A stretch of DNA of 64,000 nt from Epibacterium sp. Ofav1-8 (GTDB lineage Bacteria; Pseudomonadota; Alphaproteobacteria; Rhodobacterales; Rhodobacteraceae): contig NZ_JAKRFD010000009.1 of NCBI RefSeq assembly GCF_022348185.1, forward strand, positions 1 to 64,000. Reading direction: 5' to 3'. Both the position numbers and the translations under genes were made by a program. The notes under the pieces are model-generated. The model saw only the letters and a list, made by a program, of their open reading frames with translations, made no database searches and was not told the origin of the DNA. This document shows, piece by piece, positions 8,224 to 26,171 of the stretch; position 1 is the first letter of the stretch, and every line of letters starts with the position of its first letter.

Positions 8224-11200
8224 GTGAACAGATTTGCATTCCACTACGAAAAGCTGACGGTCAGCTCCGAGACCGGCAAGGTCTTTGCCGACCCGAAACA
8301 GATACGCCGGCGGCGCCTGCTGCAAGCGGTGATCTTGCTTCTTGCCGTCGCGCTGGCCTGGCTCGCACTGTTTCTGAACGGCGCCCTGTCCTGGCAAACC
8401 GCGTTCCAGGATGTCAGTGCCTATTGGTCCCGAGAGGATCGTCGGGACCCACTGGAGACGTTTGACCGGACGCTGCCCCCGGATGTGCAGCTCGCATCTC
8501 TTGCAGCGGCACCGAAACGTGACACGCGTTGTGCCCCGACCGAGCAGCCCTATTTTGCCGCCATGGCGGATGCGGCAGCGCCGGTGGTCTTTGCCCATGT
8601 GCCCAGCACCTATGACTGGGCGCACCTGTCCCTGCCCGACAGCTGCGAACAGATCGGGGTCCTGGTACCGGACTGGCTGCGTATCGAAGCAGACGCCAAC
8701 GGCCCGGCTCTCACCCTCGAAAGCGCCGAAAGCCGCGTGATGGTGGAGGACTTCCGGGCGCAATCCGCCGCCACACCGGACCTGATGCCAACGGTCATGA
8801 TTGATCCCGGCCCGCGGAAAGAGGCCTTTTTCACCGCGTTGAGCACGCCGGGCACCGCCACGCGCATGGCGTCCGAGCTCGCCACGACGCTGACCCTGCT
8901 CTATGCGCAGGGGGCCTGCCTGAACATCCTTGACTTCAACGAAGCGGACCTGCCCCGGCTGCTGCCCTTCTTTGAAACGCTGGCAAACCGGTTTGACGCA
9001 GACGGTTTCACGGCCTGCCTGATCCTGAGCGGGACCGACGCCCTGTGGCGGACCCCGGAGGCCACAGATCTGTTCGACACCGTCATCCTGAAGCTCTTTC
9101 ACGAACCCTGGGTCGGTGCGGCACCTGCACCGCTGGCGCCTGATGCCTGGTTCGCGGACACGGCAAAAGCAGCCGCAGAGACACTCGGCAAGGACAAACT
9201 GGTGGTCGCGCTTGGCAGCTTTGCCGTTGAATGGACCTCCGGGGTGCCGATGCCGCGGACGATGCCATACGCAGAGGCCATGGACAGAATTGCGGCCACA
9301 GGCGCAAAGCTGCGCTACAGCGCGAAGGTCTCTGGCAGTCTCAGCTCCTTTCGGGATGCAAACGGGCGTCAGCACAAAATCTGGCTGCAGGACGCAGCAT
9401 CCATACAAAACCAGCTCGCCACGCTGACCGACCTGGGGATCGCCAGCACCGGCATCTGGTCGCTCGGCCAAGAAGACCCCGGCGTCTGGACGGTGTTGCG
9501 AAACCGCGGCAGCTCCGCCGATGAACTGAGCGCAGCGCTGGCGCTGGTGCAGCTGAAAAACTTTGTCCAATACTCCGGCGAAGGGGCGTTTCTGAAACTC
9601 AAGCAGCGGCTCTCTCCGGGCATTCGGCAAGTGCGTATCGATGACGAAACCGGGCGGGTGACAGCGCAGAGCTACGACCTGATGCCCCGCCCCTACGCGC
9701 TTGAACGCTATGGCAAACCCGAAGGCAAACAGGTGGCGTTGACCTTTGACGACGGCCCGCATCCTGAGTTTTCGCCACAGGTGCTTGATATCCTCGAGGC
9801 GGAATCCGTACCGGCAGCGTTCTTTGTCACCGGATCTGCGGTGATGGAAGCGCCGGATGTGCTGCGCCGCATCGTCGACGAGGGGCACGAGATCGGGGCG
9901 CACACGTTTTCGCACCCGCGAATGGACCAGATCTCGCGAACCCGTGTCGATCTGGAGTTCTCGCTGCTCGACAAAATCATTGCCGGTGCAGTCGGACGCA
10001 AGGCCATGCTCTATCGTGAACCGTTCCAGCGCAGCGGCGGCCCGATCAGCGCCGCCCGCGTCGCGTCACTGGAACCGGCCCTGGACCGGGGACTGGAAGT
10101 CGTGGGCATGGATATCGTCCCGCGCGACTGGGACGGCTGGAGCGCGCGCGAGATCGCGGATTTCGTCATCTCCGAAGTACAGAACGATCGCGGCAACATG
10201 ATCCTTCTGCATGACGGTGGCAAAGACCGTTCCGCAACGGTCAAGGCACTGCCGCTCATCATTGCCGGGCTGCGCGACGAGGGATACAGCTTTACCACGC
10301 TGGCGAACCTGGCAAACACCACACGCGCCGACATCATGCCGGTGGCCGAGGGTGGATATCAGACGCTTGACCGGGTGTCGTTTTCCATGGTCGCCTGGAT
10401 GCGCCATGCGGTCGTGACCGCCTTCTGGGTGGCGCTGGCCATCGGCATCACCCGGTCGCTGGCCGTGCTTGTCCTCTCGATCCTGAACTGGCGCGGGCGC
10501 CGTCCCGTCAGCCTCGTGGAACCGCGCGTTGCCGTCATCATCCCGGCCCACAACGAGGAAAAGGTGATCCGCACCTGTATCGAAAGCGTCCGCGCCAGCG
10601 ACTATCGCAATCTGGAGATCATCGTGGTGGATGACGGGTCTTCGGACAACACGCTGACAGAAGTGTTCCGCTTCAGCCACAAACAGGACGTGCGCCTGAT
10701 TTCCCAGCCCAATCAGGGCAAGTGGAGCGCATTGAACCGGGCCCTGCTGAACGTCGACGCCGAGATCGTGGTCTGCATCGATGCCGACACCCAGATCGAG
10801 CGCAGCGCGATCCGTCATCTGGTCAAACAGTTCAACGACCCGAAGGTCGGCGCGGTCGCGGGCAAGATCATGGCCGGCAACAAGGTCAATCTGCTGACCC
10901 GGCTGCAAGCGTTCGAATACGCCACCTCGCAAAATGTCGACCGCCGGGCCTTCGATCTGATCAATGGCATCCTCGTCGTGCCCGGTGCATTGGGCGCCTG
11001 GCGGCGCTCCGCGCTGCGCAAGGCCGGGCTGTTCAGCGACGCCACCATGACCGAAGACACCGACCTGACCATTCAGGTCAACCGGGCCGGATACCGCGTC
11101 GTCTACGAGCCCCGCGCCCGCGGCTACACCGAAGTCCCCGAGCGCATCGGCCAATTGCTCAAGCAGCGGCTGCGCTGGTCGTTTGGCATGTTCCAAAGCG

Positions 11201-11640
11201 CATGGAAGCACAAACGTGCCGTTTTCGAAGGCCGCATGGTCGGGCTGATCTCCATTCCCGACATGTTTATCTTCGGCTACCTCTTTCCGCTTCTGGCACC
11301 GATCGCTGATCTGTTTGTGCTGGTCCTGCTCTACAACATGGTGGCCGGTGGCTGGGGCGAGCTTGACACCACGCTTGCCGCCCAGCCCACGCATTACCTT
11401 TGGGCCTATCTCACCCTCCCGGCCCTCGAGATCCTGATCGCCGCATTTGCGCTGGCGCGAGACGAAGATGAGAGCCTCTGGTCCTTGCTGCTGTTCCCGA
11501 TCCATCGTGTGTTCTACCGTCCGCTGCTGTATTACTCGGTTATCCGGGCGATCCTGCGCGCGGTGACCGGGCGCCTTGCGAGCTGGGGAACACAGAAACG
11601 ACTGGGACGCGACTACAGCCTCGCGACGGGGGGCGCATGA
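8224..11640 (+). CDS. Trifunctional GH18-like / polysaccharide deacetylase / GT2 exopolysaccharide synthase
   Basis: Membrane protein of 1138 residues from a GTG at 8224 with CGGGGAG 8 nt upstream. A cytoplasmic N-tail is followed by one TM segment (about 38-58) and a GH18-chitinase-like domain (about 95-430) whose catalytic area reads NILDFNEADL and looks degenerate. A NodB deacetylase domain follows (LTFDDGPHPEF near 506-516, HTFSHP, REPF). After a second TM comes a GT2 domain: VIIPAHNEE near 770, VVDDGSSD, CIDADTQ, MTEDTD and QRLRWSFG near 980, the processive synthase motifs. C-terminal TM helices close the protein. The likely product is an extruded, partly deacetylated amino-sugar polymer. 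The stop overlaps the next gene as ATGA. Confidence 0.88.
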   Translation: MNRFAFHYEKLTVSSETGKVFADPKQIRRRRLLQAVILLLAVALAWLALFLNGALSWQTAFQDVSAYWSREDRRDPLETFDRTLPPDVQLASLAAAPKRDTRCAPTEQPYFAAMADAAAPVVFAHVPSTYDWAHLSLPDSCEQIGVLVPDWLRIEADANGPALTLESAESRVMVEDFRAQSAATPDLMPTVMIDPGPRKEAFFTALSTPGTATRMASELATTLTLLYAQGACLNILDFNEADLPRLLPFFETLANRFDADGFTACLILSGTDALWRTPEATDLFDTVILKLFHEPWVGAAPAPLAPDAWFADTAKAAAETLGKDKLVVALGSFAVEWTSGVPMPRTMPYAEAMDRIAATGAKLRYSAKVSGSLSSFRDANGRQHKIWLQDAASIQNQLATLTDLGIASTGIWSLGQEDPGVWTVLRNRGSSADELSAALALVQLKNFVQYSGEGAFLKLKQRLSPGIRQVRIDDETGRVTAQSYDLMPRPYALERYGKPEGKQVALTFDDGPHPEFSPQVLDILEAESVPAAFFVTGSAVMEAPDVLRRIVDEGHEIGAHTFSHPRMDQISRTRVDLEFSLLDKIIAGAVGRKAMLYREPFQRSGGPISAARVASLEPALDRGLEVVGMDIVPRDWDGWSAREIADFVISEVQNDRGNMILLHDGGKDRSATVKALPLIIAGLRDEGYSFTTLANLANTTRADIMPVAEGGYQTLDRVSFSMVAWMRHAVVTAFWVALAIGITRSLAVLVLSILNWRGRRPVSLVEPRVAVIIPAHNEEKVIRTCIESVRASDYRNLEIIVVDDGSSDNTLTEVFRFSHKQDVRLISQPNQGKWSALNRALLNVDAEIVVCIDADTQIERSAIRHLVKQFNDPKVGAVAGKIMAGNKVNLLTRLQAFEYATSQNVDRRAFDLINGILVVPGALGAWRRSALRKAGLFSDATMTEDTDLTIQVNRAGYRVVYEPRARGYTEVPERIGQLLKQRLRWSFGMFQSAWKHKRAVFEGRMVGLISIPDMFIFGYLFPLLAPIADLFVLVLLYNMVAGGWGELDTTLAAQPTHYLWAYLTLPALEILIAAFALARDEDESLWSLLLFPIHRVFYRPLLYYSVIRAILRAVTGRLASWGTQKRLGRDYSLATGGA

Positions 11641-14195
11641 AACGCCGGCACTTTTTGAAAACCGTGGCCGCCAGCGCTGGCCTGATGCCGATCCGGAGCC
11701 TCGCCTCCGATTTCCTCGGCGCCGTCGCCCCCCAGAGCTATCCGGTCATTTCGGGCATCGATTCCCGCACCGCTGTGCCGCAATTGATTGCGGTTCTGGA
11801 TGCGTTCTGGGAGCGCAACATCCCCGTCACATGCCTGGTGCACCCCTTTGACGAGACCGGCCGCGCCCTGGATGGCAACCATGCGCTGTCGCGTCTGCTG
11901 TCCGGCTATGTTCTGGGGGGCAGCGGTATCGAAATCGCGCCGTTCGTGCCGGACCTGGCAAGTCTGTCGCCGCATTTTCAGGCGCGCGCGGCCCACGACG
12001 CGCTGGCCGCGCTGATGCAGATGCTGCGCCCTGCAGAACAGGCCCGCTCCGCCCCGGTTCCGATCCAGACCATCGCCTGTCATGAGGCACCCCGCCCCGC
12101 CTCTCCGGAAGCGGTGCGGACGGCCGGCCTGATCAATGTGCTGGTCATTCCGGACCACAGCGCCCCCACGCGGTCCCAAACCTGGGACAATGGCGTCGTG
12201 CGGTTGTTCGGCGGCTTCCGCAGCCGGATTGACGCGCATCCTGCACCGCCCTTTGAAGAGGCCACCACACAGACCATCCACTATCTGTCGGCGCCGTCGT
12301 TTTCGCGCCTGCCGATGGCAGAGGTTATTCCCGCTGCGGCCAACTTCGCAGAGACGCTCGCGGATCAGGAACTCGAGGGGCGCTTTTCACTGCTGCCGCT
12401 TGCCGACCTGCAACTGCGTGACAATTACCAATTCCGCAGGCTGGTCAGCCTTCATATCCTCGAACCGCTGCCCGAAGAGACCACCGCCCAGGCGGGCTTT
12501 GCGGCTCTGACGGCGCGACTTGACGCGCTTGAAATACCCTTCACGGTGGGGCCGGATCGCGGTGACACCAAAGACAGTGTCGAAACCGGACTTTGGATAC
12601 CGCTGGAGCGCGGTGCCACCGATGAGGAAGCGCAGGAGGGATGGCCGCCGCCCCATCCGATCGAATTTCTCGCGTCCGACCACAGCACCGGCATCCGCAC
12701 CACCCGGCCCCTGACCACCGGCATCGCTGTCCGGTTCCCCACCGGACCAAACGCGGCAGCCGGCCTGGCTGCCGACGGCGCGCTCACTCTGCCCTTGCGG
12801 CGCCTTTCTACGCCTGTCAGCGCAGCCGGCGTGGCACAGGCCTTTGCTGGCATCCGAGATCTCTGCGTGCAGATTTCTCCGGCGCCCTTTGCCTCGGCCG
12901 TCGCCCTGCGCGAGTTGAGTGATAAACTGTCCGCCCTGAAGGCCGACACGGTCACGACGTTCCAATCCCTGCCGGAACGTGCGCGCCTGCTCGCGCCCAG
13001 GGGGCCGATCCCCACCCGACACCGACGGGTCGCCGCTGCGCAGCCGGGATTGCTGACCCGGCACCCTCGTGACACGGCGCCAACCCGCGAAGAGCTGCTG
13101 GAGGATGCGCAGGTCGCCTGGCGCTATATTGAACGGTTCACCCATCCCGAAACCGGTCTGTGCCCGGCGACGGTGAATTTCTCCCCCGGCGGCCGGCTGC
13201 ATGAAACCGTCACCATGTGGGACGTGGGCAGTCAGATAAATGCACTGGTCGCGGCAAAGCAGATCGGCCTGATCGACGCCAACCAGCATGACACGGCCAT
13301 TCGCCGCATTCTGCCCAATATCGTCGGACGCGTTTCACAGGATCGGCGCCTGCCGCAAGGCTGGATCCGGACCGATAGGCTAAAGTGGGGCAACAAGAAC
13401 TTCGACGGGTGCGACGCCGGTCGGCTCCTGGCAGCCTTGGACAATCTGCGCCGGCACAGCACCTTTGGCGATGAGCTAAAGGAACTGATCGCGAATTACG
13501 ACCTCGACAAGGTCATTTTCGACGGCGAGATCCACTCGGTCATCGACGGCACGCTCAAGTCGACGATCGTGTCCCATTGCGCCCACTACGCCGCCCTGGC
13601 GTTTCGGCGCTGGGGGCTGGAGGTGCGTTCACCCTATGAGGTCTTCGCCGGTCGATCCGCCACCGACGGCCAGATGGCGCTACTGGAAGCCGCCGCCAGA
13701 ATTGGCCCCTTTGGTGCGGAGCCATTGCTGCTCGAGGCCATGGAGCTCGGCATGTCGCCGGAAAGCGCCTATCTTGCTGATGTCCTGTTTTCGACACAGA
13801 TCGAGGAGTATCAGGACAGCGGCCGGTTGATCTGTGTATCAGAAGGCCCCATCGACCGCAGCCCGTGGTTTCTGTACCAGGGCCTGCAGCTGGACGCGCC
13901 GACGCGCACCTGGGCAATGGACACGGTCGGCCGCGAACCCGAGTACAGAACGCCCGAGTTCGCCAGATCCCACCTCGCCGTCAGCAGCAAAGCCGCCTAT
14001 CTGTGGTCGGCGTATCAGCCGCACGCCTATTCCGACCGGTTGCGCAACTTTGTACGTGCCACCGCAAAGACGGAGAACGGGTTTTCCTCCAGTATCTTTG
14101 TGGAAACAGGGCAAGCCACGAAGCAGTATTCCGACCTCAACACCAACAGCATCATACTCCAGGGGATCGCGCATCATTTGAACGCGTTGGGATGA
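11637..14195 (+). CDS. Tat-exported DUF3131 protein, exopolysaccharide-associated
   Basis: An 852-residue protein with the twin-arginine signal KRRHFLKTVAASAGL at its start, so it is probably exported folded. Residues about 35-170 resemble a NodB/DUF2334-like deacetylase fold without clear metal residues (IPVTCLVHPFDETGR). The C-terminal half, from about 480, is a DUF3131 domain: REELLEDAQVAWRYIERF, TMWDVGSQINALVAAKQIG, and later residues of an alpha/alpha-barrel glucoamylase-like fold. It is coupled to the upstream synthase by an ATGA overlap, so it likely trims, modifies or guides the polymer. The enzymatic activity is unknown. Confidence 0.8.
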   Translation: MKRRHFLKTVAASAGLMPIRSLASDFLGAVAPQSYPVISGIDSRTAVPQLIAVLDAFWERNIPVTCLVHPFDETGRALDGNHALSRLLSGYVLGGSGIEIAPFVPDLASLSPHFQARAAHDALAALMQMLRPAEQARSAPVPIQTIACHEAPRPASPEAVRTAGLINVLVIPDHSAPTRSQTWDNGVVRLFGGFRSRIDAHPAPPFEEATTQTIHYLSAPSFSRLPMAEVIPAAANFAETLADQELEGRFSLLPLADLQLRDNYQFRRLVSLHILEPLPEETTAQAGFAALTARLDALEIPFTVGPDRGDTKDSVETGLWIPLERGATDEEAQEGWPPPHPIEFLASDHSTGIRTTRPLTTGIAVRFPTGPNAAAGLAADGALTLPLRRLSTPVSAAGVAQAFAGIRDLCVQISPAPFASAVALRELSDKLSALKADTVTTFQSLPERARLLAPRGPIPTRHRRVAAAQPGLLTRHPRDTAPTREELLEDAQVAWRYIERFTHPETGLCPATVNFSPGGRLHETVTMWDVGSQINALVAAKQIGLIDANQHDTAIRRILPNIVGRVSQDRRLPQGWIRTDRLKWGNKNFDGCDAGRLLAALDNLRRHSTFGDELKELIANYDLDKVIFDGEIHSVIDGTLKSTIVSHCAHYAALAFRRWGLEVRSPYEVFAGRSATDGQMALLEAAARIGPFGAEPLLLEAMELGMSPESAYLADVLFSTQIEEYQDSGRLICVSEGPIDRSPWFLYQGLQLDAPTRTWAMDTVGREPEYRTPEFARSHLAVSSKAAYLWSAYQPHAYSDRLRNFVRATAKTENGFSSSIFVETGQATKQYSDLNTNSIILQGIAHHLNALG

Positions 14196-14239
14196 TCCCC
14201 GGGAGTGTCAGGCGGTTTTGATCCCCAGTCCAGAGCCAA

Positions 14240-14869
14240 TCAGAACGTCCGGCATCCGGTTGCTGAAATTTCACCAGCGAACACCGGATAGCCGGGGCGC
14301 GGGTTCAAGATCACGGGCTGAATCCCCGTGATGTGCCGCATGCAGGCATCAACAGAGGCTTCGTCATAGCCCCGCCCGCCCACATAGATGTCGATCCAGT
14401 CGTGCCCTTTGTGGCCACTGTGGCAGGGGCCCTCCTGGGGCCGAGGACCATCCCCGCACAGATCCTCCACAATGGCGTATTTACGCAGCCGCTCGATATA
14501 AAAGCGGGTTCCAGCGGGGTAATCCATGATGCTGCGCCCGCCCCTCTTGACGTGACCAACTGCAAGTGTGACGGGATCGTCATAGGTCCCCACCCCACCC
14601 GCGGACCGATGGATCACCGGACGCGCAATCTGGGCAGAGCCACGGGGGGTGTTGTCCCAGTAGCTGTAGCCGGTCAGAAACGCGTTCATGATTTGTTCTT
14701 GATGCGGTGCCACTGTCGCGCGGGTCAGGTTCGGCAAATCATCTTGCACGCTCAGGCGGGTGCTGACGCGATTGACAGAGTTGCCGTCAAAACTGCGCGT
14801 GCTCCCACACGCGGAAACGGAGGCCACCGCCAAGATGGCCATTACAGATTTAAAAATATCACTCGTCAT
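14240..14869 (-). CDS. Lipoprotein with a DPBB-like domain
   Basis: A 209-residue protein from an ATG at 14869 (AGGATGG upstream). A hydrophobic signal ends in the lipobox VSAC, so it is probably lipid-anchored. The mature part contains GGVGTYDDPVTLAV, DYPAGTRFYIERL, KYAIVEDLCGD and HDWIDIYVGGRG, an arrangement I know from secreted double-psi beta-barrel proteins of fungi (GTYxDPxT, PxGTRFY, YxIVEDxC, hDLWVGG). Two Asp and several Cys are placed as in that group. Function is unknown; cell-wall or polysaccharide binding is plausible. An in-frame ATG 19 codons upstream lacks the signal-peptide arrangement and was not used. It is convergent with the DUF3131 gene. Confidence 0.7.
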   Translation of the reverse strand: MTSDIFKSVMAILAVASVSACGSTRSFDGNSVNRVSTRLSVQDDLPNLTRATVAPHQEQIMNAFLTGYSYWDNTPRGSAQIARPVIHRSAGGVGTYDDPVTLAVGHVKRGGRSIMDYPAGTRFYIERLRKYAIVEDLCGDGPRPQEGPCHSGHKGHDWIDIYVGGRGYDEASVDACMRHITGIQPVILNPRPGYPVFAGEISATGCRTF

Positions 14870-15162
14870 TTCACCATCCTGCTCAGTAGGAACACTGTTC
14901 TGAGCATTCGTCATGCCCAGACCCATGTCCCGCAGATTGGGAAATATTGCTTAACAGAGTACTAAACTTAAAATTGTATAAAGTCCAAGTTTATTAAAAT
15001 TGAGACTATATGCACGCCAATTATCATCGCACAGGTTTCCATCGCAAGACAGCCCACCCCATTCAGTGAGTTCGTCGGGCAAAGAAATGAGACTGGCCAC
15101 AAGATAACGCTCTGAAAAACCGAGAGTACGCGCCGATATTTCAGGCGGGGTGAATCCGGGTC

Positions 15163-15663
15163 CTACGTCGGAAACCCGAAATCGAGCACGATCGCCCAAA
15201 TATCCCGATTGACCGCGTGCAGGCTTTCGATGGCGTGTTCGATTCCCGCAATGGCTGTATCGTCGACATCTTCCGTCTGGCCAATTTTCAGCTTGTCCTT
15301 GCGATCCGCGATCCGCATCAGGATGGTCCGGGTTGTGCCGGCATCCTTGTCGAACGAGTAGATGCAGTGGTTGTAGCGATTGCGTAGCGCGGATTGCCGC
15401 ATCATGTCGCGCGTCGCCGAAAGCACGCGCCGTCGCAACTCCGGATCAACATGCTCCAGTTTCACCAGGCGCTCCACCAGTTCGACCCGCGCGCGTGTCG
15501 TATTCAGGGTCAGGAACACCACCAGCGCGGTTTCCGTATCGGTTCCGATCAGCCCGGCGATCAGATGGATCAACACGCTCTCGGTATTGGTCCACGTGTA
15601 GTTGAGGCGCCCCACCTGCATCAGCAACTGCGAGAAATGGGGATCGCCCTCTTGTGGTGTCAT
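15163..15663 (-). CDS. Conserved-looking hypothetical protein coupled to the LuxR regulator
   Basis: I do not recognise this 166-residue protein. It is soluble, mostly helical by composition, with an amphipathic first half (FSQLLMQVGRLNYTWTNTES, then an Ile/Leu-rich stretch) and a basic middle (RRRVLSATRDMMRQSALRNR). There are no TM segments, signal peptide or metal motif. Its ATG overlaps the stop of the LuxR-type gene as ATGA, so the two are made together; it may be a partner or modulator of that regulator. The AT-rich 294 bp between this gene and the lipoprotein gene show no convincing gene. Confidence 0.6.
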   Translation of the reverse strand: MTPQEGDPHFSQLLMQVGRLNYTWTNTESVLIHLIAGLIGTDTETALVVFLTLNTTRARVELVERLVKLEHVDPELRRRVLSATRDMMRQSALRNRYNHCIYSFDKDAGTTRTILMRIADRKDKLKIGQTEDVDDTAIAGIEHAIESLHAVNRDIWAIVLDFGFPT

Positions 15664-16319
15664 ACCCCGCCCGAAGCACGGCTGAGAAAGACGCCGGCCG
15701 CCTCCGTCCGATTGCGCACACCAAGTTTCTTGATGATATGATGCATGTGCAGCTTGACCGTATGTTCAGAGAGATCGAGATCAACTGCGATCAGCTTGTT
15801 CTGTTTGCCACTTGCGACCAGCTCCAGGATTTCGCGCTCTCTTGGCGTCAGCCGGTTTGCCTTGCGGCTCGGCATCGAGAGCGTGGCGGCCGGGACAGCT
15901 TCTCCCTGTCGCGTCAGGAACACCTGCGGCACGCAGCATTGGCCCAGGAACAGCAGCCGCAGCATCGACGCCCAGCAATCATACTGCAGGTTCATCGGCA
16001 GAAAGCCGAAGCGACCGACATCATCGCGGGCCTGGATCTGATCCAGAAACCTCAGCGCCAGATCTTCATCGAGATAGGCCAGCGCCACACGTTCCGCCGG
16101 GCATCGCTCCAGGTTGTCCACCCCGCCGCTGTCCACGCCGGCAAACACTTCCTGCTCGATCAGCGCCAGCTTGATCGGACCGGGGTGTATCACCTCCAGC
16201 TCGTCTACGGCCTGCACGCGTATTATTTCAGTTCCGGGAAATTCCAATTTAATAAGCTCTTCGCATTTCGCGGACACGGTGAGCCCGTTGCCGACAATGG
16301 CAATACATACAGTATTCAT
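15660..16319 (-). CDS. LuxR-family transcriptional regulator
   Basis: A 219-residue protein from an ATG at 16319 with GGAGG 8 nt upstream; a longer in-frame start at 16382 lacks such a site. The C-terminus is a clear LuxR/FixJ helix-turn-helix: LTPREREILELVASGKQNKL, then LSEHTVKLHMHHIIKKLGVR. The N-terminal part is receiver-like in layout but lacks an obvious phospho-acceptor cluster, as in CsgD/VpsT-type biofilm regulators. It is divergent from the repeat-protein gene across a 624-bp AT-rich region, so it is the natural candidate to control the matrix genes on either side. The ligand or signal is unknown. Confidence 0.85.
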   Translation of the reverse strand: MNTVCIAIVGNGLTVSAKCEELIKLEFPGTEIIRVQAVDELEVIHPGPIKLALIEQEVFAGVDSGGVDNLERCPAERVALAYLDEDLALRFLDQIQARDDVGRFGFLPMNLQYDCWASMLRLLFLGQCCVPQVFLTRQGEAVPAATLSMPSRKANRLTPREREILELVASGKQNKLIAVDLDLSEHTVKLHMHHIIKKLGVRNRTEAAGVFLSRASGGV

Positions 16320-16943: not shown

Positions 16944-18383
16944 ATGTCAGGTGGAAGACATCCCCATCACTTCTTCGCGCAACTCCAGGGTCAGGGCCAG
17001 CTTCAGGGCCAGGGTCAGGCCGAGCTGCAAGCGCAGGGTCAGGGCCAGGGTCAAGACCAGGGTCAGGGTCAGGGACAAGATCAGTCCCAGTCCAGTGAAA
17101 ACCTGAACCTGAACGGCAACGGGAACATGAACGGCAACCTGAGCCTCAACGGCAATGGCAATGCCAACGGAAACGCGAACGGTAACTGGAACACCAATAC
17201 CGACAGCGATACCAACACCAATGCCAACGCCAACGCCAATTCGGACAGCAACTCCAATACCAACACCGACACCAACAACAACACCAACAACTCCAACAGC
17301 AACCACAATACCAACACCAACACGAACGTGACCGTGGATGTTGGCGTTGGGCTGGAAGGCTACATGCCCGATGATGGTGATTTTGCGGATGTCGATGTGT
17401 CCGGCGGTGCCAGCGTCGGTGACGTGCTGATGGCACAAGGCGCGATGCACTATGACATCGGCGACGACATCAACGTCGAGCGCATCCTGAACAATTCGCT
17501 CAACGGTGCCGGCAACGATGTGGCAACCGTCAATGTGATGGGCAACCATCTCAGCGACAACGACACGCTGAACGACCCGGATGTCAGCAATGACAACGGC
17601 AACTTCAACAACAGCGGCAGCGCCAACGGCGGCAACGCCAATGCGGACGACGGCATCAACGCCGACGGCGGCAGCGGGTCTTCCGGCGGGGCAGCAGCTT
17701 CTGCTGGTGGTGAAGGCCTTGGTGCGGCCTTTGGTGGCTGGGCCGACGGTGGCAACACCAATGGCGGCTCTGGCGGCAACAACAACGGCTCCGCAACCAG
17801 CGGCGACGCAGGTGATGCGGGTTCGATCGCAGCCAGCATCGGTGCGGGCATCGGTGCAGCGCAAAGTGGTGCCAATGCCGGTGCAGCCGCAGCGGAAGGC
17901 GGATTTGACCTTGGTCTTCTGGACTTCCTTGAAGGCGGTGACGCAGCGGCGGCGATCGCAGCGGCGGGTTCCGCGGCCCAGGCGGGTGGCATCGGCATTG
18001 CCGGAGGCGCTTCTTCAGGTGCGATCGGTGGTGACGGCGGCCATGCAGGGGTTTCCGGCATGGGCGGCTTTGGCGGCGGCGCCTACAACGGCGGCACCTC
18101 GGTTGGTCCGACCAACTCGTCCTCGACCGGTGGCGCGGCTGGCAATGCATCCGGCGGTGACGGCGGTGCGGGCGGCAGCGGCGGCATGTGGGGCTCCCAC
18201 AACGGTGATGACGGCTTCGTCAACGGCACGTCCTCCGCGTCGGCAGATGCGATCCTCGACACCACGGCGTTCAATCAGTCGATCGCGATGGGCGCCAACG
18301 TGCTGGGCAACACAGTGGACATGACCACTGTGGGTCAGAACCTGACCTCGTCCTACTCGATGACCGGCGAAGACGACGCGTAA
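16944..18383 (+). CDS. Low-complexity Gln-Gly/Asn-X alternating-repeat protein, putative type I secreted matrix protein
   Basis: A 479-residue protein with no N-terminal signal peptide. Residues 13-50 alternate Gln with Gly (LQGQGQ repeats). From about 53 to 128 every second residue is Asn or Asp, the others being Gly, Ala, Thr or Ser. The region 129-215 is acidic and contains NHLSDNDTLND. The rest is Gly/Ala/Ser-rich, ending SMTGEDDA. Strict two-residue periodicity over about 115 residues suits a beta-strand with a polar ladder on one face, as in amyloids or beta-solenoids (inference). The next genes are a second repeat protein sharing the NHLSDxDT motif and a type I secretion ABC/HlyD pair, so export by that route is likely. 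Function is unknown. Confidence 0.78.
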   Translation: MSGGRHPHHFFAQLQGQGQLQGQGQAELQAQGQGQGQDQGQGQGQDQSQSSENLNLNGNGNMNGNLSLNGNGNANGNANGNWNTNTDSDTNTNANANANSDSNSNTNTDTNNNTNNSNSNHNTNTNTNVTVDVGVGLEGYMPDDGDFADVDVSGGASVGDVLMAQGAMHYDIGDDINVERILNNSLNGAGNDVATVNVMGNHLSDNDTLNDPDVSNDNGNFNNSGSANGGNANADDGINADGGSGSSGGAAASAGGEGLGAAFGGWADGGNTNGGSGGNNNGSATSGDAGDAGSIAASIGAGIGAAQSGANAGAAAAEGGFDLGLLDFLEGGDAAAAIAAAGSAAQAGGIGIAGGASSGAIGGDGGHAGVSGMGGFGGGAYNGGTSVGPTNSSSTGGAAGNASGGDGGAGGSGGMWGSHNGDDGFVNGTSSASADAILDTTAFNQSIAMGANVLGNTVDMTTVGQNLTSSYSMTGEDDA

Positions 18384-18418
18384 TCGTCCCCGGCGCGGTC
18401 CCGGACCGCAGAAAAAAC

Positions 18419-18445
18419 CGGCACGCGCGGGCCCCGCGCGTGCCG
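18419..18445. repeat. 27-nt perfect hairpin between the two matrix-protein genes
   Basis: CGGCACGCGCGGG and CCCGCGCGTGCCG are perfect inverted arms around a single C, 35 bp after the first matrix-gene stop. There is no T-run on the plus strand; instead six A residues precede the hairpin. It may stabilise the 3' end of the upstream mRNA or partly attenuate transcription, giving more of the first protein than of the second and the transporter. Confidence 0.65.
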
Positions 18446-18469
18446 ACTTAGTCGCCGAATTATCCGGCA

Positions 18470-20662
18470 GTGTATGGTATTGTTGCGATGTTACTCGACA
18501 AGGTCACAGAGACGATCGCATATTTCATCGGGCTCTTTCAGCTCGTGACGGAAACAGCGCGCGGACGGCTGGACTATGACAGCTTCAAGGCCGCCGAGAC
18601 GTCCAATGACCTTGATCCTCTGATTTCACACAGCACAAACCGGGACATCAATTTTTCGCCCGAAGGCCACGATCCCCTCGTCCACAATCCGCATGCTCAG
18701 CTGCACAAGGCGGCGGTGGCCACGGCGGTCTCCGCTGAGATCGGACTACCGCAGATCAAGGCCCCCATGATCCCGGACGCCCCCAACCTGCCCGGAGAGG
18801 CAATCGTCGCGGCCGGCCCCGCACCGATTTCCGGCCCGTTCGTGCTCGAGGTTCCGCCGCCCGGCGGCAGCATCCACTTCACCTGGCAGGAGAACCATCT
18901 TTCGGATCGTGACACCATCAACATCGACCCTGCCACCCAGGACGCCTGGAACACCGTCCAGACACAGCTGATGCAGGAGCTGAAAGCAAGCGCCGAAGCC
19001 CTCCAGATACTGGATCTCACGGATGGCTCGGCCTTTGCAGAGATGGACGTGTTCGAAATAGAAGCCCAGGTTGAAACCCTTGTTGCGCTCGCCGAGGCGC
19101 AGATCGAAACAGCGGATGGCGCCTCGATCCACCTTGCCACCGGAAGCGACACACAGATCGTGACCGTCAACGGGGTCGAGCATGAGGAGCTGCCAGTCTG
19201 GACAGAGCTGCTTCCGGATGTGCCCCAAGAAGATGACGACGAAGAGAGCGCGGCGACGACGACGGCCTCGGCCACGGCGGGCACCACGACAGCTTCTTCC
19301 TCCGCCACCCAGCCCGGCACGGCAATCGAAGGCTCGGGCGTTGTGGGGCTGCCCGAGGAAGATATCGCCACGACAACGCCGCTGGACACCGAAACGGACC
19401 CGGCCTCGCCTTCTGAGACGGCAACGGCCTCCTCTGCCGCACACACCGTGGTGACGGGCGGCAATGTTGCCATCAATGCGGCCTCCAGCGTCACCGGGGG
19501 CGTCGACGCGCCAGTCATTGCCGTGGCCGGGAGCGTTGCCAGCTTTGACATGATCAGTCAGGTCAACGTGCTGCTGGATGAGTCAGCCTCGCCCGGTGCA
19601 GAGAACCTCTTGCAGAACAGCGCCGCGTTCAGCGGCTCGCCCAGCCTGCCGGGCGCCCAGCCCGCGGCCCCCGCAACCGGCCCCGCAGGAGGCGGCCCCG
19701 CCCCCGGCATGGTTGCGGTTTCCACCATCGACGGTGACCTCATCAACTTCAGCTGGACGCGTCAGATCAACTCGGCAGTGGATGATGACGCCGTGCAGGT
19801 GACCACCTCCGCCACCGAAAGCTGGATCGATCTCGGCGGCAATATGCTGCTCAACACCAACGCGCTGTTCTCTCAGGCGATGGGGTTCGATCTGATCCTG
19901 GTGGGAGGCGACATGATCTCCCAATACATCGTACAGCAGACCAATATCGTTCTGGATTGGGACTACTTCGCCAGTGGCGCCCCCCAGGATGTGCTGCCGG
20001 GCGGGACCGGAGACGGGCTGTTCTCCACGGGCGGCACGACATCCGCTGCTTCGGACACCAGCACGGGCGGCAATGCCTTGATGAACTCGGCGTCGATCAC
20101 CCACACCGCGCTGGACACGTTCAGCGGGATGACGGCCACGTTCCAGTCGGTGCTGGACAGCTTTGGCGCGGGCGGGTCCGACATCTCGCCGCTGATCGGC
20201 AACAGCGCCCTGCAATCGCAGCCCGTGCTCAATGTGCTCTATATCAGCGGCGACCTTCTGGATGTGCATCTGCTCTCGCAACTGAACATCCTGTCGGATG
20301 GCGATCTGATCACGGGGAGCGCCGAGGACGGTCTCGGAACCACCATTCACTCCGGCCTCAATGCCGCGGTGAATGATGCGCATCTGATTGATGTGGGCAT
20401 GGCGTCCGAAGTCTTTGCAGGGGGCGAGGTCTATTCAGATGCCGTCCTCTATCAAGCCAACCTGATCGCAGAGGATCTGCCGCCCACGGACGTGTTTCTC
20501 GCACCCGACAGCATCGACGGGCTGGCCAGCGAAGCCGTCGCGTTTCTGTCTGACGATCTCAACACACAACCGAGCAATGCAGAGGACATAAGCGTCGGAG
20601 AGACCTCCATCGCGCAGGATGGACCGATCCATAGCGACGTGATGCAGACAATGCTCGCCTAA
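18470..20662 (+). CDS. Repeat protein with QxN(hydrophobic)xDxD units, putative type I secreted
   Basis: 730 residues from a GTG at 18470; an ATG at 18488 is an alternative, and neither has a clear ribosome site. There is no classical signal peptide. A Thr/Ala/Ser-rich spacer (about 255-325) divides it. Repeats of a GG-N-x3-N block followed by (V/I)xGG(D/E)...QxN-hydrophobic-xDxD occur as QVNVLLDES (364), QINSAVDDD (432), QTNIVLDWD (490), QLNILSDGD (604) and QANLIAED (662), with an early form WQENHLSDRDT (140) that matches the first matrix protein. The C-terminus is acidic then hydrophobic, as in many type I substrates. It lies 28 bp before the secretion ATPase gene. I do not recognise a named family. 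Confidence 0.75.
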   Translation: MYGIVAMLLDKVTETIAYFIGLFQLVTETARGRLDYDSFKAAETSNDLDPLISHSTNRDINFSPEGHDPLVHNPHAQLHKAAVATAVSAEIGLPQIKAPMIPDAPNLPGEAIVAAGPAPISGPFVLEVPPPGGSIHFTWQENHLSDRDTINIDPATQDAWNTVQTQLMQELKASAEALQILDLTDGSAFAEMDVFEIEAQVETLVALAEAQIETADGASIHLATGSDTQIVTVNGVEHEELPVWTELLPDVPQEDDDEESAATTTASATAGTTTASSSATQPGTAIEGSGVVGLPEEDIATTTPLDTETDPASPSETATASSAAHTVVTGGNVAINAASSVTGGVDAPVIAVAGSVASFDMISQVNVLLDESASPGAENLLQNSAAFSGSPSLPGAQPAAPATGPAGGGPAPGMVAVSTIDGDLINFSWTRQINSAVDDDAVQVTTSATESWIDLGGNMLLNTNALFSQAMGFDLILVGGDMISQYIVQQTNIVLDWDYFASGAPQDVLPGGTGDGLFSTGGTTSAASDTSTGGNALMNSASITHTALDTFSGMTATFQSVLDSFGAGGSDISPLIGNSALQSQPVLNVLYISGDLLDVHLLSQLNILSDGDLITGSAEDGLGTTIHSGLNAAVNDAHLIDVGMASEVFAGGEVYSDAVLYQANLIAEDLPPTDVFLAPDSIDGLASEAVAFLSDDLNTQPSNAEDISVGETSIAQDGPIHSDVMQTMLA

Positions 20663-20690
20663 TGACAGCAAGGGACTTACGGGGGGAAAA

Positions 20691-23471
20691 GTGAAGATTT
20701 TCAGAAACAGCGGCGCGGCCGAAGCGAAGGCCTGTGACTCGATGCCCGAAATGCGGGAGTGGCAGGCAAAAGCCACCTCGTCCCTTGTCCAGAGCGGTGG
20801 CAGGCCCGTCCCCGCAAGCGACACCTCCGCCCTGGCGCTGAACAGCTCGCCGGTCGCGCCGACCCCGCTCCCGCTGAAGCTTCGGGACACATGGAAGCTG
20901 GAAAATCCCCAGGGGCGCAAAGCCCCCGAGGACAACGCGAAAACCGCCCCCTGCCCGCCACCGGCAAAAGGCCCCGGCGCAATGCAGCCGCAGGCCGAGG
21001 CCCCACCTGCCGCCGCGGGCGACCCTGTGCCAGCGCCCCTGCGCGATCTGGCCGATTTGGCGCCTGCGGATCTGTCCGACCAAGCGCGAAACTGCGACAC
21101 GTCAACGGCCACACGCGATGACGATGCTCCGGATGTACCTGTCGATGCGCGCCCCGCGGCGCCCGCCCCAGACCCAAAGCCAGATCAATCTGCCACAGGC
21201 CCGGACACCGCTCCGCAGCATGCGCCCGAGCCTGTCGCCGGGACTGCCCCCAACTCCCCCGCTGAAGGTGCGCCCGCACCGGTGGAAACATCCCAGCACG
21301 AAACCGTCGCCCCCACGGACAAAACGGTGGACACAGCAGCGGGCTCGGCGCCTGGCACGGTGCCTTCCGACGCAAACCTCAGCGCGCCACCAGAGGGCGC
21401 GCCCCAGGTCGACCCAGCACCCGCACCCGGTACAACAGCACCAGAGCCGGAAACGACGGTCGCGGCCACGGAACAGGACACCGCGGCCACATCCGCCGCC
21501 CCGGACCCCGATACATCTGCGCCGGAAACAGCCCGGCGCGATGAAGAAGCCCGCCAGACCGAGGACGAAGCCCGCATGGACCCGATGGTCAAAGGGCTCG
21601 GCACGCCGCCGCTCGAAGCGCGCGCCAACGCGCGCTCCCCTGCGACCAAAGCCGGCGGACCGCAGCCCCCCGCTGGGGGTTCAGGCAACGGTGGCGGCGG
21701 CGGCGGTAACGGCGGCGCCCGGTTTCACCGACGGCTGGGTCCGCAGAATTTTGAAAAGAGCCTGCGGGAGGGCATGGTCGCCGTCCGCCGCAACATGGGC
21801 TTTGTGATGTTGATGACCTGTGCGACCAATATCCTTGTCCTGGCAATCCCCATCTACCTGTTCCAGATTTCGGACCGCGTGCTGACCAGCCGCTCCGTCG
21901 ACACGCTGATCATGCTGACACTGGTGATCGCCGCCGCAGTGGTCCTGCAATCGGTCTTTGATGCGGTCCGCCGCTTCATGCTGATGCGCACCGCGGTCGA
22001 GGTCGCCGCCAGATTGGGCGCTCCGATCCTGAGCGCGGCGGCGCATGCCTCCTTGCACAGTTCCGGCCGGGAATATCAGGCCCTTGGCGATTTGCAGCAG
22101 GTGCGCAGTTTCCTCACATCCGGCACCTTGATGGCCTTCCTCGACGTCCCCTTTGCGCCGCTTTTCATGCTGGCCATCTTTCTCGTGCATCCCCACCTGG
22201 GATTTATCGTGATCACGACCGCGGTCGTGCTTCTGGTGATCGCAGTGATCAACCAGAGGCTCACGGCAAAGCCCTTTGCGCAGGCCAACCAGGCCCAGTC
22301 ACGGGCCAACCTGCATCTCGATTCCATGACCCGCAACAGCCAGATCATCAATGCATTGGCGATGATCCCCGAAGCGGTCACCATATGGGGTCGGGACACA
22401 GCCGCTTCACTCACGGCTCAGGTCTGCGCGCAGGACCGCAATGTGATCTCCGCAACCTTCTCGCGCGGAGTGCGACTGCTGACCCAGGTGGGGATGCTCG
22501 GCTGGGGGGCCTATCTGGCCATTCAGGGCGAAATCACCGGCGGCATGGTGATCGCCGCTTCCATCATCGCCGGCCGCGCCCTGGCCCCGGTGGAGGGCGC
22601 CATCGAAGGCTGGAACGCCTTTCTGCTCTCCCGCTCGGCCTATGGGCGCATTGCCCAGCTGCTGACCCGGTCCGGCTTCCAGTTCGAGCGGCTCTGGCTG
22701 CCCCAGCCCGAAGGTCGGCTGGATGTGGAACGGCTGCTCTATGTGCCGGGCGGCACCAAGCAGGTGGTGCTGAACGCCATCAGCTTCTCGCTTGATCCCG
22801 GCGACACGCTGGCGGTGATCGGCAATTCGGGCGCCGGCAAGACGACCCTTGGCAAGATGCTTGTGGGGTCGATCCTGCCGACCTCCGGCAACGTGCGCCT
22901 CGACCTGATGGATCTGCGCAATTGGGACCCCCGCCAGCTGGGCGAAAACATCGGCTACCTGCCGCAGGATGTTCAACTGTTTCCCGGGTCGATCAAGGAC
23001 AACATCGCCCGGATGCGCCAGGATGCGACGGATGAGCAAATCCATCGGGCCGCGGTTCTGGCCGATGTGCACGACATGATCGCATCGCTGCCGCAGGGCT
23101 ATGAAACCATGGTGGCTGCGGATGGCTCCCCTCTGTCGGGGGGACAGAAACAGCGCATCGCGCTGGCCCGGGCCTTCTTTGGAGATCCGCGCCTCCTGGT
23201 TCTCGACGAGCCGAATTCCAATCTCGATGTGGCGGGCGACAAGGCCCTGGCCCGCGCCATCGAACACGCCAAACGCAACAAGATCACGGTGGTCGTCATC
23301 ACGCAGAAACCGACACTGCTGGGCACCGTCGACAAGATCATGCTTCTGTCCGGGGGCAACGTGGCCATGATCGGTGCCCGCGACACCGTCCTGAAGCAGC
23401 TGGCGGGCTTTCAACAAGGGCAGGCGCCCGGTCTCGACAACGGCGCCGCTCCCAACGGGGGACAACAGTGA
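20691..23471 (+). CDS. Type I secretion ABC transporter (PrtD-like) with a long disordered N-terminal extension
   Basis: 926 residues, against about 570-580 for PrtD-type proteins. Residues 1-343 are Pro/Ala/Thr/Asp-rich without TM segments and end in a Gly-Asn run. The membrane domain (about 360-640) opens with MGFVMLMTCATNILVLAIPI. The ATPase domain has Walker A GNSGAGKTT (711-719), signature LSGGQ (815-819) and Walker B with D839-E840. The usual H-loop His is Gln872 (ITQKP). The GTG start has GGGGGG upstream. It forms an inner-membrane export channel with the HlyD protein encoded next. No TolC-type outer-membrane gene is present nearby. The substrates are probably the two upstream repeat proteins. 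Confidence 0.88.
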   Translation: MKIFRNSGAAEAKACDSMPEMREWQAKATSSLVQSGGRPVPASDTSALALNSSPVAPTPLPLKLRDTWKLENPQGRKAPEDNAKTAPCPPPAKGPGAMQPQAEAPPAAAGDPVPAPLRDLADLAPADLSDQARNCDTSTATRDDDAPDVPVDARPAAPAPDPKPDQSATGPDTAPQHAPEPVAGTAPNSPAEGAPAPVETSQHETVAPTDKTVDTAAGSAPGTVPSDANLSAPPEGAPQVDPAPAPGTTAPEPETTVAATEQDTAATSAAPDPDTSAPETARRDEEARQTEDEARMDPMVKGLGTPPLEARANARSPATKAGGPQPPAGGSGNGGGGGGNGGARFHRRLGPQNFEKSLREGMVAVRRNMGFVMLMTCATNILVLAIPIYLFQISDRVLTSRSVDTLIMLTLVIAAAVVLQSVFDAVRRFMLMRTAVEVAARLGAPILSAAAHASLHSSGREYQALGDLQQVRSFLTSGTLMAFLDVPFAPLFMLAIFLVHPHLGFIVITTAVVLLVIAVINQRLTAKPFAQANQAQSRANLHLDSMTRNSQIINALAMIPEAVTIWGRDTAASLTAQVCAQDRNVISATFSRGVRLLTQVGMLGWGAYLAIQGEITGGMVIAASIIAGRALAPVEGAIEGWNAFLLSRSAYGRIAQLLTRSGFQFERLWLPQPEGRLDVERLLYVPGGTKQVVLNAISFSLDPGDTLAVIGNSGAGKTTLGKMLVGSILPTSGNVRLDLMDLRNWDPRQLGENIGYLPQDVQLFPGSIKDNIARMRQDATDEQIHRAAVLADVHDMIASLPQGYETMVAADGSPLSGGQKQRIALARAFFGDPRLLVLDEPNSNLDVAGDKALARAIEHAKRNKITVVVITQKPTLLGTVDKIMLLSGGNVAMIGARDTVLKQLAGFQQGQAPGLDNGAAPNGGQQ

Positions 23472-24805
23472 TGACTGACAGCGTCAACATTCAGGAATGG
23501 CATCACGAGGTTCCGCGCTCGATCCGCAAGCACGCCATCTTTGGCATTGCACTGTTCGTGACCGCATTCGGCGGGTTTGGTGCCTGGGCGTTCCGCGCCC
23601 CGCTGGCCGCCGCCGTCATCTCGCAGGGGTCGTTTGTCGCCACCGGTCGCAACAAGATCGTTCAGCACCTGGAGGGGGGCATCATCGCCGACATTCTGGT
23701 GTCGGAAGGGGATCGCGTGCAGAAGGGCGATGAACTGATCCAGCTGAACCAGACGGCGGCGCAGGCGGATCTTCGTGAGCTCGAATTGCGCCGTGCGCGC
23801 CTGGAAGCCGCCGAAGCCCGTGTCCGCGCCGAGTATCGCGCCGACCGCAATGTCAGTTTTCCGCCCAATCTCTTGCGGCTTGCGTCGGAAAACGCGGAGG
23901 TGACCGATCTGCTCGCCGACCAGCGCCTGACCTTCGATTCCGCGCGTCGGCTTCAGGAAAGTGAGCTTGCCATTCTGCACAACGGCATGGACTCGCTGGT
24001 GATCCGCAGCGAGGGCTATGCGGCACAGCTGAACGCCTATCGCGAACGCGCCATCAGCCTTGACGAGGAACTTGCGGACAAACAGGAGCTCCTCGACAGT
24101 GGTCTGATCCGGCGTCCTGAGTACAATTCGGTTCACCGCGCCGTGCTGGAAACCAACGGCCATATCGCGCGTCTCGAGGCGGAAATCGCCGAAATCGAGC
24201 GCGCCCGCCTGAAATTCGAGCTGGAGATCGACAAATTGCGTTCGGATCGGCGCCAGGATGCGCTGGACGAATTGCAGGCGATCCAGGCCGAGCTGGACTC
24301 GATCCGGGAGCAATCCCGCAAGGCACAGGATGTGCTGTCGCGCTCCACCGTAATCGCACCGGTAAGTGGCACGGTGGTCCGGATGTATTACCACAGTGCA
24401 GGCGGCGTGATCGAAAGCGGCAAGCCGATCGCGGAAATCCTGCCCGCTGATGCGCCCTTGCTGATCGAGGCGCTCATTCCCCGCACCGACATCGACAGTA
24501 TTACCCTCGGGCAAGCCACCACCATTCGGCTCTCGGCGCTGAACCAACGCACAACCCCGGTGCTGACGGGCCGGGTGCGGTACGTGTCTGCGGACTCGAT
24601 CACCGACACCTCCGATGGCACCTCCCGCGAGGTCTATGTCGCCCATATCGGCCTGCCCCCGGAAGAGTATGAACGGGCCAGCGCCTTTGTACCGGTGCCG
24701 GGGATGCCCGCGGAGGTCATGATCCAGACCGAGGAACGGACGTTCTTTGAGTATCTGATCAAACCTGTGCGGGACAGCATGTCCCGTGCCTTCCGCGAGC
24801 AATAA
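23471..24805 (+). CDS. HlyD-family type I secretion membrane-fusion protein
   Basis: Periplasmic adaptor of 444 residues that bridges the ABC exporter to an outer-membrane channel. There is one N-terminal TM segment (about 22-42: HAIFGIALFVTAFGGFGAWA). Next is the lipoyl/barrel-sandwich half GRNKIVQHLEGGIIADILV with VSEGDRVQKGDELIQL, a long coiled-coil hairpin (about 100-300), and the second lipoyl half VIAPVSGTVVRM. The end resembles PrtE. The ATG at 23471 overlaps the ABC stop by one base; a GTG one codon earlier is possible. Transcription likely ends at the hairpin just downstream. Confidence 0.9.
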   Translation: MTDSVNIQEWHHEVPRSIRKHAIFGIALFVTAFGGFGAWAFRAPLAAAVISQGSFVATGRNKIVQHLEGGIIADILVSEGDRVQKGDELIQLNQTAAQADLRELELRRARLEAAEARVRAEYRADRNVSFPPNLLRLASENAEVTDLLADQRLTFDSARRLQESELAILHNGMDSLVIRSEGYAAQLNAYRERAISLDEELADKQELLDSGLIRRPEYNSVHRAVLETNGHIARLEAEIAEIERARLKFELEIDKLRSDRRQDALDELQAIQAELDSIREQSRKAQDVLSRSTVIAPVSGTVVRMYYHSAGGVIESGKPIAEILPADAPLLIEALIPRTDIDSITLGQATTIRLSALNQRTTPVLTGRVRYVSADSITDTSDGTSREVYVAHIGLPPEEYERASAFVPVPGMPAEVMIQTEERTFFEYLIKPVRDSMSRAFREQ

Positions 24806-24809
24806 CAGC

Positions 24810-24833
24810 CCTGAGGGCGCCGGTGCCCTCAGG
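24810..24833 (+). terminator. Hairpin after the secretion operon
   Basis: CCTGAGGGC and GCCCTCAGG form a perfect 9-bp stem with a 6-nt loop, 4 bp after the HlyD gene stop. There is no T-tract, so it is either a weak terminator or an mRNA 3'-end protector. Confidence 0.6.
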
Positions 24834-24943
24834 CACATGAGCCGAATTATGCACCACAGGGCGCCCGCGCCGACATTCGCGTGACATCCCCTGCCGCCTG
24901 TATGATTGTCTGTCTTCAGGGACAGAAAACAAATAGGTGACAC

Positions 24944-26083: not shown

Positions 26084-26171
26084 TCCGCTGTTCGGCTCCG
26101 GCATCGCGTCTGCCGCCACAACGGCAGGCGCCTTCTGACCAAGCCCGCCCCTGCGACACAGCGGGGTCGGG

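Follow-up and report, generated by a model that had tools for sequence, protein, structure and literature searches.

A conserved six-gene module with two repeat proteins, a type I exporter and a covarying leader RNA hairpin in Epibacterium and its relatives

In the curli system of enterobacteria, with its regulator CsgD, the regulatory and structural operons are divergent and separated by a long intergenic region, and a fibre is combined with a polysaccharide, while Fap systems use fap-type secretion genes. Type I exporters also deliver proteins to the biofilm matrix, as reported in the portions of the literature considered here for CabABC of Vibrio vulnificus and for the Rap proteins of Rhizobium leguminosarum, of which RapD is described as interacting with the biofilm exopolysaccharide. 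In Paracoccus denitrificans, according to the part of the publication considered, BapA is a protein of 2,211 amino acids (aa) with 891 Asp-Ala repeats, and its exporter has an outer-membrane protein of its own (PMC5588039). Type I-secreted matrix proteins are thus already known as a general kind. The cluster for the arabinose-containing polysaccharide (APS) of Sinorhizobium meliloti is given, in the section of the source considered, as uxs1-uxe-apsS-apsH1-apsE-apsH2 with CuxR (PMC7902896). Here, we analyzed a 64,000-nt stretch of Epibacterium sp. Ofav1-8 (positions 1 to 64,000 of contig NZ_JAKRFD010000009.1, hereafter the window) and found that six of its genes, D to I (15163-24805), form a conserved system in which D-E diverge from F-G-H-I. 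We consider it probable that these genes represent an extracellular-matrix module, in which the type I-secreted, amyloid-like proteins F and G work together with a polysaccharide.

Every gene named in the original prediction was found as an open reading frame (ORF) in its place (Table 1), the start of D and the stop of E overlapping by 4 bases. To delimit the system, 84,980 species genomes were scanned with an alignment of G, which gave 140 related stretches, and the best 80 of these 140 loci were kept. They belong mostly to Rhodobacterales but also include Rhizobium rhizogenes, Oricola, one Geminicoccaceae bin and one Hyphomicrobiales bin. Enough flank on both sides was available in 62 loci; these carried all six genes without exception, and the order and strands were the same in 60. 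The two deviating loci are L092, in which the ORF call for I is over-long, and L115 (R. rhizogenes), which has D downstream of I. The Asn-X protein (F), the QxNxxxDxD protein (G) and the exporter (H and I), whose co-occurrence had been expected, therefore do travel together, and D and E accompany them. The distribution was further analyzed in 101 genomes (the window's own and 100 relatives), in a family sample of 394 genomes from 393 genera, that is, about one genome per genus, and in an even class sample of 385 genomes. Among the 101 genomes, G-like proteins were found in 14, and D in exactly these 14 and in none of the remaining 87. We inspected 15-20 kb around the module in the 13 other relatives, and D, E, F, G, H and I recurred there, with gaps only for F in L025 and L031, which BLAST did not call there, and in L027, whose contig stops before H. 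D was present in 35 of the 394 family genomes (~9%), nearly one genome per genus, as well as in 33 plasmid records from Sulfitobacter, Paracoccus, Ensifer, Sinorhizobium and others. In the class sample, G was found in only two genomes, the window's own and one from another family.

The two highly unusual repeat proteins of the original prediction indeed carry repeats beyond chance. F consists of alternating xQ and then xN repeats at the N terminus, a Gly-rich middle and a conserved C-terminal block. Its longest alternating Gln/Asn run has a median of 18 and is longer than any seen in 100 shuffles in 70/74 homologues, and the C-terminal block (NQ-x-I-x2-GAN-type pattern) is kept in 64/74. In G, the Q-x-N-x3-D-x-D-type motif occurs at a median of 4 per protein versus 0.05 in shuffles. 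These repeats are imperfect, with Q motifs conserved at residues 364, 432, 490, 604 and 662 at a spacing of ~58 residues or double, and they alternate with G-x-N-x3-N-x-A motifs. The extreme C terminus of G is also conserved, ending in LA in 55/78 homologues, most often as DVMQTMLA. Both proteins are strongly acidic: the ratio of acidic to basic residues is 48:2 for F and 98:10 for G in the window, and 6604:652 and 8199:1637, respectively, when homologues are pooled, unlike in D, E, H and I. Cysteine is absent from F and G of the window and from 70/74 complete F and 50/78 complete G homologues, as well as from 47/75 of I. No Pfam family matched F or G up to an E value of 1, and searches of Pfam, NCBIfam, PHROGs and PADLOC assigned F, G and D to no named family at useful scores. 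RTX nonapeptides (GGxGxDxUx) were not found in F or G of the window; looser GGxGxD words occur at least three times in 27/78 F homologues, as expected from the Gly/Asp-rich middle. In agreement with the original prediction, no Sec signal was apparent by eye on either protein, although no signal-peptide program was run. A match of F to a circumsporozoite-repeat chain (E 0.0055) was discarded as a product of Asn-repeat composition. Separately from its repeats, G has a conserved, predicted helical N terminus (D..TE.IAHFIG.F....E..R.R..Y; window 18470-18610), possibly a recognition or anchoring element.

The predicted type I ABC/HlyD exporter was also borne out, since both components exceed curated NCBIfam cut-offs: H meets TIGR01842 PrtD (697 bits, cut-off 510, residues 364-904) and I meets TIGR01843 HlyD (382 bits, cut-off 209). 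The ABC protein had been described as extended, and in H of the window ~360 aa rich in Ala and Pro do precede the PrtD domain (20691-21780), but this N-terminal part is variable among homologues, whose lengths range from 494 to 1001 aa. An outer-membrane efflux protein (PF02321) is encoded in the module flank in 15/80 loci (e.g., L045 2964-4334 and L071 3183-5093), the label resting on a Pfam scan of one representative. None is encoded in the module of the window, the rest of whose genome was not searched for one.

A motif search in 72 E-F intergenic regions gave two conserved blocks, a hairpin and a 20-bp motif. The hairpin lies ~60 nt before the start of F in the window, and elsewhere its stem begins mostly 49-63 nt before those F starts that look correctly called. 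For its alignment, we took 47 sequences (the window and 46 homologous loci) in which the leader was present, the position-weight score was at least 12 and the identity to any sequence already kept was at most 90%; L047 was then removed for its shorter loop, leaving 46 rows. Because the weight matrix spans the 5' stem strand and the loop and leaves out most of the 3' strand, pairing was not directly selected for. Pairing at the six inner positions is intact in 94.6% of the cells, changes on both sides occur at all six, and the covariation score is 0.580 versus 0.319 after shuffling, a signal that is lost when partners are slid. The outermost of the six pairs is broken in 14/46 sequences, G-U pairs occupy 24 cells, and the loop is conserved and asymmetric. 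The hairpin is enclosed by an outer stem of at least 5 bp in 48/58 elements, versus a mean of 19.6 and a maximum of 30 with swapped 3' flanks. When a covariance model was run over 94 sources (1.8 Mb), 58 of the 59 matches up to E 1 were located before F, a few of them just inside an over-long F ORF call, 46 of these 58 having served to build the model; the lone match elsewhere was in L159 (E 0.79). The 58 matches correspond to 56 of the 73 homologous loci holding the leader, the window and the plasmid locus L135. In whole genomes (27 genomes, the 150 best candidates per genome scored), the best match was at the module in 8/9 module genomes, the ninth, G004, having none at E 0.1, and weak matches (E 0.04-0.06) were found in 2/18 module-free genomes and at a second site in the window's own genome. 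Single-sequence folding of the window's leader element gave a nested two-stem form, and the energy z scores of three other leaders were -2.2, -2.6 and -1.2. Rfam 15 gave no match at gathering thresholds over 14000-26500, nor one up to E 1 in the region 16300-17000. The F leader thus contains a structured RNA with strong covariation that occurs almost only in this module.

The second block, the 20-bp motif, was found on the minus strand in 71/72 regions, ~200 nt before F in the window and mostly 200-340 nt in the others. Scored on the same 72 regions on which it was trained, it lies above the 95th centile of shuffles (10.4) in 63, with a score of 18.8 in the window. The word TGTGGATAA, which is DnaA-box-like, was additionally seen in 10/72 of these regions, versus 0.3 in shuffles. 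E itself carries a GerE helix-turn-helix (HTH) domain according to Pfam, in agreement with the LuxR-type regulator of the original prediction. Its similarity to the CsgD equivalog is confined to the HTH and reaches 48 bits for a cut-off of 250. VpsT-type regulators of cyclic di-GMP response share a conserved W[FLM][ST]R motif. E of the window has FLTR before the HTH, but this stretch is unconserved among 73 aligned E sequences, and VpsT-like cyclic di-GMP binding was rejected.

The AlphaFold2 model of D has a confident helical core (mean predicted local distance difference test [pLDDT] score, 81.8). An RN-x3-H or RH-x3-H motif, which we take to be the R-x4-6-H motif of the HEPN superfamily, is present in 71/72 D proteins, the exception (L114) having Lys for Arg. 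The fold matches include the HEPN domain of sacsin (Z 7.6, root mean square deviation [rmsd] 3.0 over 106 residues) and SO_3166 (Z 6.2). PHROGs gave only weak matches, E 0.0026 and worse, to families of unknown function. Three loci, all from Paracoccus (L089, L092 and L095), have RHRYNH in place of RN, and the same three lack a hairpin match, a coincidence that is suggestive, in three related genomes only. As a side observation, a ~636-aa AAA/Sel1 protein, likewise labelled from one representative scanned with Pfam, is encoded directly behind D in 4/80 loci (L048, L066, L071 and L085).

A candidate polysaccharide partner of the module emerged from its flanks and from co-occurrence. A recurring cluster encodes two NAD-dependent epimerases, a GT2 protein of ~650 aa and a GH26 protein (uxs-uxe-GT2-GH26), and Pfam found GH26, GT2-type and epimerase domains in the Tritonibacter mobilis copy. 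The T. mobilis GT2 is ~55% identical to an S. meliloti protein encoded in the order AraC-uxs-uxe-GT-DUF995-GH26-DUF995, and the names uxs and uxe follow from this synteny. In the flanks of the 80 loci, the GT2 family occurs in 12 and the GH26 family in 13, which are lower bounds because the flanks extend at most ~6 kb past the module. This APS-like cluster lies just behind D in some lineages, including on a Sulfitobacter plasmid, and beside I in others; it was also found in R. rhizogenes (L115). The window's own genome holds uxs-uxe-GT2-GH26 in order at G000:C32:285176-290117 (L156 6176-11117), 57-58% identical to the T. mobilis cluster and unlinked to the module. For the 101 genomes, we counted as APS-like synthases only the 12 hits with E < 1e-200, excluding 17 weak-hit genomes, and 10 of these 12 genomes have the module (P 3e-9), linked to the cluster in 3 (G004, G006 and G016) and unlinked in 7. 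Within the window's genus, the APS-like GT2 is present in 9/10 module genomes and in 0/8 others (P 4e-4), one of the latter, G014, being only 67% complete. In the family sample, it was found in 34 genomes, 14 of which also have D versus 3.0 expected (P 6e-8); in 12 of these 14, the two are on different contigs or far apart, and in G649 and G749 they lie within ~4 kb. Phylogeny is handled in these P values only through the sampling of about one genome per genus and the contrast within the genus. Across genera, the module is thus significantly associated with the APS-like cluster but not with the synthase pair A-B that precedes it in the window. The leader hairpin, the HEPN-like motif in D and this cluster elsewhere in the genome were all absent from the original prediction.

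Table 1. Positions of the module, its intergenic elements and the neighbouring genes in the window
Feature	Position	Strand	Description
Gene A	8224-11640	+	GH18-like/deacetylase/GT2 synthase; outside module
Gene B	11637-14195	+	DUF3131 protein; outside module
Gene C	14240-14926	-	228 aa; outside module
Gene D	15163-15663	-	166 aa, HEPN-like helical protein with RN-x3-H motif
Gene E	15660-16382	-	240 aa, LuxR/NarL-type regulator, GerE HTH, divergent N-terminal part
20-bp motif	16727-16746	-	E-F intergenic region; candidate operator or promoter element
Outer stem, GCCCGG with UCGGGC	16873-16918	+	Encloses hairpin in F leader
Covarying RNA hairpin, inner stem and 13-14 nt loop	16880-16912	+	Leader of F
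Gene F	16944-18383	+	479 aa, Gln/Asn-ladder protein; candidate type I substrate
Gene G	18470-20662	+	730 aa, QxNxxxDxD repeat protein; candidate type I substrate
Gene H	20691-23471	+	PrtD-type type I secretion ABC transporter
Gene I	23468-24805	+	HlyD-family adaptor
Gene J	24944-26083	+	Lytic transglycosylase

The original prediction had treated 8224-24805 as a single island, with F and G combining with a deacetylated amino-sugar polymer produced by A and B. The two genes adjoin the module in the window; A has deacetylase and GT2 domains (Pfam) and an N terminus of GH18 type, resembling SleL, YaaH and chitinase chains, and B belongs to DUF3131 (E 5e-76). The best NCBIfam similarity of A is indeed to PgaC/IcaA, but its 190 bits are far below the curated cut-off of 422. 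Full-length B was found in 6 of the 101 genomes, always with A adjoining, plus 4 genomes with partial, distant matches, and the module is present in 3 of these 6 (P 0.03). This association vanishes within the window's genus, where B occurs in 3/10 module genomes and 3/8 others (P 1). It is not significant in the 394 family genomes either, where B (matches at E up to 1e-60 counted) was found in 27, of which 4 share D versus 2.4 expected (P 0.28); for the 11 strongest B genomes, the overlap is 3 versus 1.0 expected (P 0.065). Furthermore, A-B and the module are on different contigs in the other two genomes that have both. None of A, B and C was found in the inspected flanks of the other 13 module relatives, and in the inspected flanks of the 80 loci the only match was a weak one to A (24 bits), produced by the APS-like GT2 of L036. 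On the basis of these neighbourhoods and counts, A-B is an independent two-gene unit with at most a weak association with the module, and we rejected it as a module part, so that the single island does not hold and its one-polymer version appears highly unlikely. Since A-B is not significantly associated with the module across genera while the APS-like cluster is, a deacetylated amino-sugar polymer is unsupported for this module; a protein-polysaccharide matrix as such is indirectly strengthened, although the partner sugar named for it was probably wrong. It is also conceivable that F and G serve as surface adhesins, or as a surface coat, secreted by type I export but forming no fibres, the APS link reflecting a shared surface lifestyle. 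They would then belong to the same general class as known type I adhesins, one of which, in the portion of the source considered, is the dipeptide-repeat protein BapA of P. denitrificans (PMC5588039), and over half of the module genomes in the family sample have no APS-like synthase. However, (DA)6 runs are absent from F and G, as are RTX nonapeptides from the two window proteins, and APS-like genes on either side of the module in several lineages go beyond what a shared lifestyle would lead one to expect. We therefore regard surface adhesins without fibres as rather unlikely, and prefer the matrix module.

HEPN proteins are common in toxin-antitoxin and defence systems. This fact, together with the patchy distribution of D, plasmids included, would fit D-E being such a pair that adjoins the exporter by chance. 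We consider this extremely improbable, as D had no PADLOC match up to E 0.1, E matches CARF-type models in its HTH only, and D never occurs without the module among the 101 relatives. The hairpin could likewise be an inverted repeat in the DNA to which E or some other dimeric regulator binds, with no RNA element involved and D unrelated to it: it lies in a divergent region presumably controlled by E, inverted repeats can serve as operators, and no transcript start is known. The G-U pairs, the conserved and asymmetric loop, the distance of mostly 49-63 nt to F starts that look correctly called and an outer stem that co-varies as well argue against an inverted repeat, which we judge fairly unlikely. 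The most far-reaching version of the matrix module is an RNA-gated functional-amyloid system, in which a HEPN-type D would bind or cut the widespread leader RNA and thereby control the translation of type I-secreted Gln/Asn-ladder fibres that assemble with the arabinose-containing polysaccharide. That D acts on the hairpin is an economical guess, proposed because D accompanies the module and the F leader is its conserved RNA, and we see the complete RNA-gated system as a doubtful possibility.

Several observations weigh against the matrix module or its RNA gate. The structural leads for G are FapC amyloids only, and they are not significant: its AlphaFold2 model is beta-rich but has a mean pLDDT of only 56.6, and on this low-confidence model FapC was matched with a Foldseek E value of 3.1 and, separately, with Z 3.9 (rmsd 3.6 over 84 residues). 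Searching PDB chains with a sequence profile (E up to 10) gave neither FapC nor a convincing relative. Homology of G to FapC, significant neither by sequence nor by structure, was rejected. In the family sample, 21/35 module genomes are without the APS-like synthase and 20/34 synthase genomes are without the module. D is found in 8 Ensifer and 5 Paracoccus plasmid records, and no plasmid record of these genera matched the APS-like GT2 at E 1e-60, a search that did not cover chromosomes. Because many genomes hold one without the other, module and synthase are associated but not obligate partners. Upstream of uxs, none of 10 APS loci showed a convincing copy of the 20-bp motif; 9 of the loci are unlinked to a module, and 2 of the 9 come from genomes without one. 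The highest score, in L161, is 10.4 on the opposite strand and barely over the 95th shuffle centile (9.9). A shared E operator at F and the APS-like cluster was therefore rejected, and joint control of both by E is unsupported. Regarding D, no HEPN family was among the Pfam matches of 14 members, PDB sequences gave no HEPN support, and the HEPN fold matches are tied with unrelated helical bundles, so that the HEPN reading relies on motif and fold match. Finally, 17 of the 73 loci with the leader in the record have no hairpin-model match (a looser pattern finds the hairpin in several of them but also matches 18% of shuffles), and the folding energy of the hairpin in the window, taken alone, is unremarkable (z -0.74).

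Taking these data together, we propose the following model for the matrix module. H and I would export F and G, as the operon, the composition and the conserved C termini of the two proteins suggest, through an outer-membrane factor that is encoded nearby in some species and presumably elsewhere in others. Outside the cell, F and G may assemble via their Gln/Asn-lined beta repeats into an amyloid-like scaffold, and this scaffold would work with a polysaccharide, often the product of the APS-like cluster, as their co-occurrence suggests. E, given its HTH and position, could act as the dedicated switch of the divergent operons. F-G-H-I would be transcribed with a long leader, whose hairpin near the start codon may modulate translation or stability, and D, which is co-encoded with E, would be the likeliest reader of the hairpin and might add a post-transcriptional gate. 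The module represents a probable matrix-protein system of roseobacters, Paracoccus and rhizobia, adds a structured RNA that no Rfam model matches and offers a candidate protein partner for the arabinose polysaccharide. If its RNA-gated version is true, it would represent an amyloid-like matrix route distinct from curli and Fap, and a HEPN protein would serve matrix gene control and not defence.

One neighbour deserves mention apart from this model: gene C has a lipobox-like start by eye and no family, and it is not found beside the module in the 80 loci.

Among the titles and abstracts returned by searches of open-access literature, none covers the six-gene set or the hairpin, subscription papers not being included. 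The module, for which export is predicted, resembles CabABC and the Rap proteins in the type I export of matrix proteins. However, according to the sections of these reports considered, Rap proteins share a cadherin-like (Ra/CHDL) domain, whereas F and G have no Pfam domain, and E, D and the leader hairpin are without counterpart there. The module possibly adds a new control layer. Like BapA, which the considered part of its description presents as needed for attachment (PMC5588039), F and G are low-complexity, very acidic candidate type I substrates. Unlike BapA, they lack long Asp-Ala repeats, (DA)6 being found in 0/78 F and 0/81 G, and F and G were thus rejected as BapA, which is a different gene. 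Since the P. denitrificans module locus (L089) contains no (DA)10 ORF, this species seems to hold both the module and the published bapBCD, the former contributing a second type I exporter. FapC of Pseudomonas, as far as the part of the source considered describes it, shares with G imperfect repeats of similar size with conserved Asn/Gln (PMC12392863); the two differ in that there is no sequence match and that the module has type I exporter genes. The divergent regulatory and structural operons across a long intergenic region recall curli, but the export route is different and E is like CsgD in the HTH only. Lastly, module genomes share with the S. meliloti APS cluster a homologous epimerase-epimerase-GT2-GH26 order. 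Such genes are commonly found without the module, since among Sinorhizobium plasmid records the GT2 is present in 77 and D in 6; in module-linked loci, in contrast, the APS-like cluster stands beside D or I.

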